The translations under genes and the position numbers were made by a program. The notes under the pieces are model-generated. The model was not told the origin of the DNA. It was given only the letters and a program-made list of their open reading frames with translations, and did not search any database. This document shows, in pieces, positions 30,085-32,730 of a stretch of 39,928 bases of DNA (position 1 is its first letter; the number at the start of each line of letters is the position of its first letter). This DNA is from an uncultured Ignavibacteria bacterium (lineage in GTDB: Bacteria; Bacteroidota; Ignavibacteria; Kapaibacteriales; UBA2268): positions 1 through 39,928 of the forward strand of contig CAIOZA010000110.1 in NCBI GenBank assembly GCA_903862655.1, written 5' to 3'.

Positions 30085-30450
30085 ATTTGCATTGATTGCA
30101 TCGTATTTTTTGTAATTTTGGTTGATTATCCTACCTTTAAAAAGTCAACGACTTTTCGAAAGTGATTTGTATCATTTGAATAACCGTGGGTGAAACCCGT
30201 GGGAAATGATAAATTTTTCCGGAAACACCATCGGTGTGAAAGCTTAATAGATAAAATGGAGGATAGAGCGTCGATGCCCCGTAGGGGCGGTATCTCCTTT
30301 CGTTATAAAAATCAATTTCGCTCCTACGGAGCTTTGGTGACTGGTTGGTGCGATTTTCTATTAAGATTCCATACCTAACGGGATTAAATTCACCAAATGC
30401 AAATTGCGAAAATGTTGCAATTCTATCAAAGAAACGGTTTTAAATATAAA
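30085..30450. repeat. Intergenic array of short palindromes
   Basis: No protein gene is supported. Within 150 bp four short hairpins occur in series: CCGTGGGT/ACCCGTGG (30184-30202, with two wobble pairs), ACACC-ATC-GGTGT (30225-30237), GCCCC-GTA-GGGGC (30276-30288) and GCTCC-TAC-GGAGC (30320-30332). The loops of the last two are complementary (GTA and TAC). The wording (CCCCGTAGGGGCG, CTCCTACGGAGCTTTGGTG) is like short palindromic repeats that are dispersed in many Bacteroidota-type genomes, but only one copy is in this window. Confidence 0.55.
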
Positions 30451-32730
30451 TTAAATCTTTATGAATTTGCATAACTTATCTCCTATCTGGGCAAAATACA
30501 TTCCCGGAGCCAAACCGGAGACATCAATTCTTGCTCCCTCCCTGCTTGCGGGGAGGGTTGGGGTGGGGTTAACGGTGGTCTGTATTTCTCCTAGAACATT
30601 ATATATCCTCACTTCGCTTTGTAAGGGCGAACGGCCGTTCACCCCTACGTTTATTTCGATGAAATCGGAAGCAGGATTGGGAAAGATCATCGTACTATTG
30701 TCCTTTATGATCTTATCCTCAACATAGTCTGGTTTTAAATACAGCTCTAAACGAGTGATCCTGTTATGACCAATTAGCATGTATTTATTATCACCAATTT
30801 TATTGATTTTGAAAAATCCAGTAGATTTATTTTCATAAAGAGTAGTGTCATTATTCAAATAATAAAACGACCAGTTTTTACCGGCATCAGTAGTAATAAA
30901 AACTGAATCCTTTTTAGTTGTTGCTATCCAAACATTTGCATCTTGTGAAAAAATATTAGTCGGATAAAAGCTCAAATAATCGGAAAGCAATTCATTAAAA
31001 TTTGAATCTAGTAGAATAATTTTCTTTGAAAACCCATTGCCATGTACTAATATTTTTTTGTCAGGTAGTATATTAATACCATAAGTATAATCCTTACCTA
31101 ATGGCATTATCTTTTTTACTTCTAGTGTAGAATTTTTTATATCAAATATGTAGAAAATCAATTCAACTTCTTCTTTATTTGGATTGTTAATTGAATCTTT
31201 TGTATTGAGATTGGCAACTTTCAATAAGATATATTCAGAATCATTTATAGGAGAAATCGAACTTATAATATTAAAATACTGTATTGATTTATTTTTAACT
31301 TTTAATAGAGAATCCGGGAATGGAATTGTTTGAAATGTATTCCCATAATCTATAGAATAACTTACAGGAGATGTGCCAGATAAATATATAATATTATTCT
31401 TTTGCTGTGAGACAACCGAAGCCCTAATTTCATTAATATTTACTATAGCACCTGAGGTTGTATCATAATATATATCCAGAGGTTTTGTATATTTATTTAT
31501 ACCAACAAATCTAAAACCATTTTTATATTGAAACCCACCCAAAAAATATACTCCGTCATCTCGAAAATCATTCCATGGACTTTTTTGAGCTGTCTCCGAA
31601 AGAGTATCAAATGGAAAAATGGTGTTCCAAATGGTTCCATCATTGGATGATTTTAATATTTTACCATAATTACCTAAAATAAATAAATTATTTTCTTTAA
31701 TAATTAGTTCATTGAGTGCAACTGTATAAACTGGAACAGGATATTGTGAAGAAGCATAATTTAGTAATTTCTTTGTAGAAAGAGGTTTTAAATATCCATA
31801 ACTCTGATCCCGACCACAATAGAAAATGTCATCTCCAAATTGAATAATATCTTTGATAATAATAAAATCTCTTGAAAATTTCAAATAATCTTTAGTAAAT
31901 ATGGTATCGGAACCAATTAAATCAAAATTATTGTCAAAATAAAAAATATAACCCCAAGAATTTAAAACAGCAAAATTATCTTCAAAATTAATAATCTTGT
32001 TTATGTATCCTAACTGATTATTTCTAACACTATCAAATGTTGTCCCGCCATCTGAGCTTTTATATAAATAATTAGCATAATTACCATTGCTAGTATCAGC
32101 TCCACCTATGAGAATATTTTTGGCATTAATTGCACAAGATGATATATTAGAATTGAATTTGCCTTTAACTTGAGTTTTAATCAAAAAATTTTCGTTTAGT
32201 ATTTTATAAAAATACTCCTTTATTGTTAAATAAATAATACTATCATGTATGACAAAATTCGAAATAATATCGTCGGCTATAAAAGATGTATCGCTTCTTT
32301 CATTGATAAAATTATATTTGAATAAGTATTTTCCTAATGAATAGAAAAGATTCTTGTTGTCATCGGTGATAAATGATTGTTTTATTGAATTACTATTATC
32401 CTCAATAATCAACTTCCAATAATCTCCTCTATCATTGCTGTAAATTATTTCTGAAGTAGTATTCAATACTATCTTTCCTTTATTATTTGAATTCAATGAT
32501 ATAAATGAATTCCTTGTACCAGTTTCTATCCAATTCCAAGTTTTTCCTTCATCCTTGGTTTTAATTAGCTTTCCATTCTCACCAGCTATAATAATTTCAG
32601 ATTTCGAGAGTAATAATATTTTATTATTTGAAGCTGATACTCTTTGATAGCTGATATCTAAGCAATTTAAATTCAGAAAATTCATTAGAAGAATTAATAA
32701 GACGATGTATATTCTGATTGATATTTTCAT
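30451..32730 (-). CDS. Beta-propeller T9SS cargo protein with palindromic insertions in the sorting domain
   Basis: 759 residues. The first about 23 residues are a signal peptide (MKISIRIYIVLLILLMNFLN). The body is a BNR/Ycf48-like beta-propeller with Asp-box motifs: TKDEGKTWNWI, SNDRGDYWKLI, KSSDGGTTFDSV, KSSNDGTIWNTI, SIDYGNTFQTI and TTDAGKNWSFYY. From about residue 678 a type A T9SS sorting domain begins (IFPNPASDFIEINV), continues with VRIYNVLGEIQTTV, then IDVSGLAPGMYFAQI and FIKI. Two extra segments interrupt it: GVNGRSPLQ between the first strands and NPTPTLPASREGA before IDVSG. Each is encoded by a GC-rich DNA palindrome unlike the AT-rich rest of the gene. It probably shares a transcript with the cysteine-rich gene 30 bp upstream. 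Role unknown. Confidence 0.85.
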   Translation of the reverse strand: MKISIRIYIVLLILLMNFLNLNCLDISYQRVSASNNKILLLSKSEIIIAGENGKLIKTKDEGKTWNWIETGTRNSFISLNSNNKGKIVLNTTSEIIYSNDRGDYWKLIIEDNSNSIKQSFITDDNKNLFYSLGKYLFKYNFINERSDTSFIADDIISNFVIHDSIIYLTIKEYFYKILNENFLIKTQVKGKFNSNISSCAINAKNILIGGADTSNGNYANYLYKSSDGGTTFDSVRNNQLGYINKIINFEDNFAVLNSWGYIFYFDNNFDLIGSDTIFTKDYLKFSRDFIIIKDIIQFGDDIFYCGRDQSYGYLKPLSTKKLLNYASSQYPVPVYTVALNELIIKENNLFILGNYGKILKSSNDGTIWNTIFPFDTLSETAQKSPWNDFRDDGVYFLGGFQYKNGFRFVGINKYTKPLDIYYDTTSGAIVNINEIRASVVSQQKNNIIYLSGTSPVSYSIDYGNTFQTIPFPDSLLKVKNKSIQYFNIISSISPINDSEYILLKVANLNTKDSINNPNKEEVELIFYIFDIKNSTLEVKKIMPLGKDYTYGINILPDKKILVHGNGFSKKIILLDSNFNELLSDYLSFYPTNIFSQDANVWIATTKKDSVFITTDAGKNWSFYYLNNDTTLYENKSTGFFKINKIGDNKYMLIGHNRITRLELYLKPDYVEDKIIKDNSTMIFPNPASDFIEINVGVNGRSPLQSEVRIYNVLGEIQTTVNPTPTLPASREGARIDVSGLAPGMYFAQIGDKLCKFIKI
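30533..30570. repeat. GC-rich palindromic element inside a coding region (copy A)
   Basis: CCCTCCC and GGGAGGG form the outer part of a 22-bp hairpin (one mismatch, 2-nt loop AA on the coding strand) preceded by AACCCCACCCCAA. It encodes NPTPTLPASREGA, 13 codons, so it keeps the reading frame. Base composition differs sharply from the AT-rich host gene. Confidence 0.75.
30621..30649. repeat. GC-rich palindromic element inside a coding region (copy B)
   Basis: A 28-bp inverted repeat centred on GGCC: GTAAGGGCGAACG is matched by the reverse complement on the other side with only two mismatched pairs. It encodes VGVNGRSPL in the first loop of the sorting domain. It is a different element from the one 50 bp away. 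Confidence 0.75.

Follow-up and report, generated by a model that had tools for sequence, protein, structure and literature searches.

Mobile repeat DNA has most likely made the T9SS sorting tail its home in the genome described here. The reading we favour, with a probability of roughly 0.7, is that two permissive loops in one multiplied lineage of C-terminal T9SS type A sorting domains (CTDs) have repeatedly captured REP-like palindromes and exchanged them. A preliminary description of the window (the whole 39,928-nucleotide stretch of DNA that was analysed) had reported the two palindromes from a single gene. That gene does carry both, but the two-slot pattern recurs in dozens of CTDs and in several genera.

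The host gene and its two palindromes

The host gene (30451–32730, reverse strand) encodes a 759-residue protein with propeller-like N-terminal matches to PF15902 and PF14870 and a CTD of the slotted class at residues 682–759 (30454–30687, reverse strand). In profile searches the C-terminus matched PF18962 with 36.3 bits (E = 6.9e-09, cut-off 27) and TIGR04183 with 27.7 bits (cut-off 23). With the curated cut-off passed and the match at the C-terminus, the protein is a carrier of a predicted T9SS type A export signal. The class profile A1 matched the host CTD with E = 7.0e-39, the CTD itself being 1 of the 21 rows in A1. The domain is laid out as FPNPASDFIEIN-V[GVNGRSPLQ]S-EVRIYNVLGEIQTTV-[NPTPTLPASREGA]-RIDVSGLAPGMYFAQIGDKLCKFIKI, with the palindrome-coded peptides in brackets.

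Both palindromes that the preliminary description placed in frame in this domain are present. Its pairing of palindromes and peptides named the right members in swapped order. Palindrome A, which fills slot 1 (GTAG type, coding strand GTAGGGGTGAACGGCCGTTCGCCCTTAC; 30621–30648, reverse strand), has 14-nt arms that are 86% complementary and a zero loop; it encodes (V)GVNGRSPLQ, the codons of GVNGRSPLQ being 30619–30645. Palindrome B, in slot 2, has a 22-nt core (30536–30557, reverse strand) with 10-nt arms that are 90% complementary, and lies within the codons of NPTPTLPASREGA (30532–30570). The reading frame is preserved by both. GC content is ∼15–38% across the gene body (in 60-nt steps) against 50–60% in the element region. 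The 28-mer consensus of palindrome A, with ≤3 mismatches allowed, has a single match in the window, whereas none of 100 shuffles gave one.

In an AlphaFold2 model (mean pLDDT 78) the peptides are found between strands 21–25/38–42 and 47–51/63–67, so that both sit in predicted inter-strand loops. Model residues 58–60, in the second loop, have pLDDT <50, as expected for a flexible insert. A fold search returned nothing at E ≤0.001 (best 0.0098, with PorU among the weak matches), and a search of a defence-system library gave no match. The suggestion that the inserts weaken the export signal appears unlikely, because filled CTDs retain conservation over the last ∼26 residues, which include the final two strands. 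In the host protein these residues are RIDVSGLAPGMYFAQIGDKLCKFIKI (the last 26; 30454–30531, reverse strand), conserved and element-free.

Searched against 54 family genomes, the propeller body gave, besides itself, only matches of ∼100 aa at 30–36% identity and no orthologue for comparison. The orthologue comparison was replaced by one with empty class CTDs from the same genome. The propeller N-terminus has a distant paralogue (36% over ∼100 aa) in a 782-aa frame (L398, at C48:1756 of the same genome, and L129); the CTD at C48:3832 belongs to the ordinary class and lacks palindromes. The intergenic DNA beside the host gene (30105–30440) is a mosaic repeat with 27 genome matches including itself, the best other copy being 88% identical (C15:43507), and it contains an inverted repeat, GCCCCGTAGGGGCG/CGCTCCTACGGAGC, at 30276–30332. 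At 35–96 of the window there is an imperfect inverted repeat containing TCATTTCGAACG. We take it to resemble a dispersed element whose translation is SNEVRNP; this peptide also occupies slot 1 of some CTDs in genome G009.

Copies in the genome and the two-slot class

With ≤3 mismatches, palindrome A was found at 24 places in the 4.07-Mb genome and palindrome B at 15 distinct places; the reversed patterns used as controls gave 0 in each case. The source proposed in the preliminary description, dispersed intergenic repeats, does not fit this genome, where 23 of the 24 places of A lie in CTDs, all in the same loop (the exception is C84:27551), as do 13 of the 15 places of B (exceptions C12:52825 and C67:1829). 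A broader GTAG pattern gave 45 rows that reduce to 36 distinct places (its reversed control gave 2 per strand), all but one of the 36 in CTDs; the exception, C122:32551, is inside an intergenic repeat. In six places A and B stand 88 bp apart and in two others 79 bp, and the 25 aligned copies of A in CTDs use a single register.

The CTDs concerned share a core, DFIEIS ... RIYNVFGQ ... RIDVSGLAPGMYFVRIGDRVSKFVKL, with two loops (slots) filled by differing elements. Seven types were distinguished in slot 1 (GANGRSPLQ, AGSEPA, RAVSEQ, YPPLERG, INPMLKY, LSESLKLSES and GEVTSPL) and nine in slot 2 (PTLPASREG, IHELP, VQNLEP, AGLEPAPT, TLSTSGEG, SLRDTPPWKG, VCSAATPASGG, PLLDIPYQAG and STSLPPLQFEG). By our own reading an inverted repeat is recognizable in at least one copy of 7/7 slot-1 types and 7/9 slot-2 types; by the palindrome score there is none in VCSAATPASGG and PLLDIPYQAG. 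Sixty class rows were collected, one of which (L038|159) is a partial duplicate of L074|662, and 57 could be parsed, the other three having no anchors. Both slots were typed in 46 rows (22 combinations), one slot in 3 and neither in 8 (7 distinct); L120 and L065 were kept under 'other', though A-like and LSES-like by eye. Slot lengths and permutation tests refer to the 49 CTDs that remain when the 8 rows with neither slot typed are removed. Despite unequal element lengths, slot 1 has 13 residues in 42 of these 49, compared with 7 or 9 residues in empty class CTDs (the six with both anchors found). The 40 bodies of ≥100 aa from the 46 CTDs fall into 27 BLAST clusters (E ≤1e-5; largest 11), so the class tails sit on many different proteins.

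CTD fragments with filled slots and no secreted body lie in short ORFs (64–72 aa) at two loci, L012 (C147:6918–7361) and L430 (C19:89601–89804). They are traces of CTD copying or gene decay, and on C147 two CTD fragments stand in tandem. Elsewhere in the same genome (L069, C24:69901–78362) five class-CTD genes lie within ∼9 kb, four of them filled and one empty.

PF18962 scored 150 CTDs among 304 candidates in this genome, and the enrichment of palindromes over ordinary CTDs was measured on profile-found CTDs. Because many class CTDs had first been found via the palindromes, they were recounted with exclusion by hand of class CTDs not matched to the PF18962-scored list and of fragments, which left 149 CTDs. 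The 46 class CTDs among them hold 43 strong palindromes (score ≥9), with at least one in 29, whereas the 103 generic CTDs hold none (Fisher p ∼3e-19 for CTDs with versus without a palindrome). Upstream blocks gave 6 palindromes in 453 (3 in 152 plus 3 in 301). Before the exclusion the figures were 55 palindromes in 55 class CTDs and 1 in 105 generic ones. Shuffling of synonymous codons reduced 68 palindromes (score ≥8) to a mean of 5.8. Chance or codon bias as the origin of the palindromes is ruled out by the shuffles and controls.

Relatives, other phyla and Y1 transposases

The class profile matched in 45 of the 54 family genomes, own included (E ≤1e-9). Of the class CTDs of relatives, 84 were read, these being the top matches. 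In 44 of them the final 210 nt contain a palindrome (55 palindromes in total, counted anywhere in these 210 nt, a few of them outside the slots), compared with 18 palindromes in 288 upstream blocks. The other 40 of the 84 have none, including one CTD each in G033, G062, G074 and G076. In relatives from several genera these loops are filled as well, frequently by unrelated palindromes, and the element type varies by genus: ATCAACC...GGTTGAT in G024, G032 and G075, GTAGAGACA in G018, and a mixture in G009. Six genomes hold the TCAACC type, which is unrelated to A, at 53 places in total (control 0). Seventeen distinct places among these were read, and 14 of them are in slot 1 and in one register, although at two (L465, L476) the frame leaves the CTD soon after; of the three that are not slot 1, one (L466) lies in a CTD that has decayed and is on the opposite strand.

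All 20 copies of palindrome A in G005 are outside CTDs. At one locus of that genome (L188, C267:5372–5863) A recurs every 235 bp, three times in all, as part of a larger tandem repeat. Within the order, two genomes, G038 (31 places) and G054 (17), hold many copies of a variant of A with two mismatches; by eye, no CTD was seen at the few order-level loci read (L167–L169, L171–L173, L175 and L176). Profile A1 matched 11 of 395 phylum genomes at E ≤1e-12, 7 of them in the same family, own genome included. Judged from these matches, the class appears nearly confined to its own family in the sampled phylum genomes.

The 28-mer of palindrome A (R/Y at two positions) was found in at least 114 DNA stretches from Cyanobacteria, Chloroflexi, Nitrospirae, Planctomycetes and others. 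For 80 loci with 85 sites that were read, 58 sites have no ORF by our criterion. In the ORFs of other phyla both registers are used. By Pfam, the in-frame hosts include RibD, HemD, MurD, MutS2, HsdM, CHAT proteins and four Y1_Tnp proteins. In the RibD, HemD, MurD, MutS2 and HsdM proteins (L211, L215, L222, L245, L284) the 28-bp palindrome is inside the Pfam domain.

The four Y1_Tnp proteins belong to other genomes (L194, L225, L251, L263) and score 23.8–27.4 bits, just over the cut-off of 23. Palindrome A stands at residue 91–100 of the open frame in these Y1 ORFs, and there is a second copy beside L251. We take the Y1 proteins to be RAYT-like, by their motifs. The genome with the host gene has a RAYT-like Y1 gene (L206/L439, C22:44468) with an AGSEPAPT-type palindrome in frame in the matching loop, and another Y1 gene (L204/L438, C6:82403) with the like peptide RAGLESAPT and no palindrome by score. 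These IS200-like Y1 ORFs have in-frame GTAG-type palindromes at about the same loop, past the NHxH motif (in L204 the peptide only); a related gene in G015 (L434) has no palindrome at that loop. Beside the two Y1 genes of the own genome no CTD-type palindrome of that genome was observed, and one of another sequence lies ∼300 nt from the L204 gene.

Origin of the filled loops and known systems

At the level of sequence, these comparisons establish that elements have been captured recurrently, in frame and at specific positions, that they turn over, and that there is sharing of elements across phyla. Had the elements been acquired once by an ancestor and carried along by gene or domain duplication, the present differences would be drift. 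The class core does have a common ancestry in its DNA: class-wide synonymous identity is 0.583 in the tail against 0.422 expected from codon usage, and 0.675 against 0.461 before slot 1. Orphan CTD fragments, such as that at C147:6918–7361, would also suit such a history. However, when 48 of the 49 CTDs were compared by slot type, the synonymous codon identity of pairs sharing a type was 0.888 for slot 1 (n = 313 pairs) and 0.848 for slot 2 (n = 134 pairs), against 0.69 ahead of slot 1, 0.62 for the linker and 0.58 for the tail in these pairs. Slot DNA is more alike than its own flanks, so the palindromes are younger than the surrounding domains or have been homogenised more. The elements were not simply carried by old duplications but arrived or were homogenised later. 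Many unrelated elements share one slot, relatives have other element families, and slot type shows no association with the tail (the observed value was reached in 111 and 34 of 200 permutations). The CTDs L060 and L084 are 87–88% identical on both flanks and differ in slot 1. We regard a single acquisition as highly improbable. The slot types do track other parts of the domain, slot 1 its 5′ flank (4/200 permutations) and slot 2 the linker (3/200). This is the behaviour anticipated for recombination seams, at which domesticated palindromes would serve to exchange sorting tails between genes, and it is in keeping with tails that sit on bodies of 27 BLAST clusters and with a similarity between class CTD genes that stops at the stop codon (∼0.285 downstream). 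Generic CTDs, however, are likewise found on many genes and have no palindromes; of the alternatives this is the strongest, and still an unlikely one.

The hairpins might instead be kept for a role close to the 3′ terminus of the gene, at the mRNA or the DNA level (stability, pausing or gyrase), with the peptides as a by-product. The accessible text of PMC3733652, which places REPs elsewhere mostly downstream of coding regions, is consistent with this, as are two-sided changes in 2 of 14 pairs among nine IHELP copies. Against it, the 25 slot-1 copies of A have such changes in 0 of 14 pairs and generic CTD genes manage without palindromes (0/103), and we judge a hairpin role improbable. Least probable of all is selection for particular loop peptides, in recognition or anchoring, with the palindromes incidental. 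The single register of A in its 25 aligned CTD copies, where ORFs of other phyla use both, and the nearly fixed length of slot 1 would be expected of it, but the peptides differ widely between element families, the synonymous sites are conserved, and in G005 and other phyla this DNA is also present outside ORFs.

We return to repeated capture and swapping as the preferred reading. REP-like elements of ∼20–40 bp, from several unrelated families, would have been captured in frame at the two loops again and again, the host being one lineage of T9SS type A CTDs that multiplied within the genome on many different proteins. Entry would be by a transposition-like step, for which IS200/RAYT-type Y1 transposases are the best candidate, a tentative choice that falls a little short of even odds; the DNA examined showed neither a transposition event nor a target duplication, nor any exact empty site. 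Also to be set against this reading are the two slot-2 types that lack a palindrome by score, the 40 of 84 class CTDs of relatives that have none, the marginal scores of the four Y1_Tnp proteins and the surroundings of the own Y1 genes, where no CTD-type palindrome was observed. Spread and replacement could then proceed by recombination among similar tails. This would explain why none of the 103 generic CTDs was hit, an absence which suggests that spread needs tail homology and that most copies perhaps arose by recombination, not by fresh insertion. The elements would be retained because the loops tolerate inserts, lying away from the conserved last strands and being held nearly constant in length. 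We are more doubtful of a stronger form, in which the CTD loops would be a standing exchange site where palindromes, perhaps as hairpins cut by Y1/RAYT, are continually captured and swapped between paralogous tails. The secretion signal would then be the main genomic niche of selfish DNA, and each genus would refill the slots with its own elements, diversifying the loop peptides on secreted proteins. What the CTDs offer is mobile-like palindromic DNA resident in coding sequence, at fixed domain positions, in dozens of paralogues and several genera. They may be viewed as an experiment, run and replicated by nature, on the conversion of repeat DNA into protein, on the amount of loop insertion tolerated by a T9SS signal and on REP-like spread.

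With known T9SS type A CTDs (PF18962, TIGR04183) the class shares the profile match, the C-terminal position, the seven-strand model and the conserved last strands. It differs in that palindrome-coded peptides enlarge two of the loops; in the alignment, the solved relatives 7pzj_A and 8glj_D have short loops at these positions. The open-licence PMC literature, with few subscription papers covered, yielded no description of palindromes in T9SS CTDs. GTAG REPs are, in the accessible text of Di Nocera et al. (2013; PMC3733652), palindromes of 20–40 bp found in many phyla and linked to RAYT tyrosine transposases; they are mostly intergenic, with in-gene copies in varied proteins, many of them from replication or repair genes and some in frame. 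The 28-nt palindrome at slot 1 falls within that size range, several of our elements start with GTAG, and presence in many phyla with some in-frame in-gene copies is common to both. Unlike in those REPs as described there, the GTAG of our elements is base-paired, with CTAC/TTAC, instead of forming an unpaired tag, and other families have no GTAG. In the own genome only 1 of the 24 places of A is outside CTDs, whereas REPs are mostly intergenic (as in G005, 20/20 outside), and nearly all copies of two palindromes occupy two loops of one domain family.

The preliminary description had also likened the elements to the Rickettsia palindromic elements (RPEs), and frame-preserving palindromes in CTD loops of a comparable kind are supported by our data. 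According to the accessible parts of PMC3733652 and PMC10969869, RPEs are protein-coding palindromes inserted in frame into ORFs that are likely still functional. The two systems are alike in having palindromes in frame within ORFs. RPEs are ∼150 bp long (PMC10969869), although RPE-4 and RPE-6 are counted among short CGTC repeats (PMC3733652), and they occur in unrelated genes of Rickettsia; the elements here are ∼20–40 bp and occupy fixed loops of one domain family, a use that the accessible text of the two papers does not mention for RPEs. As far as these sources go, intragenic REPs and RPEs are already known, and what is new is the residence of palindromes at fixed loops of one domain family.
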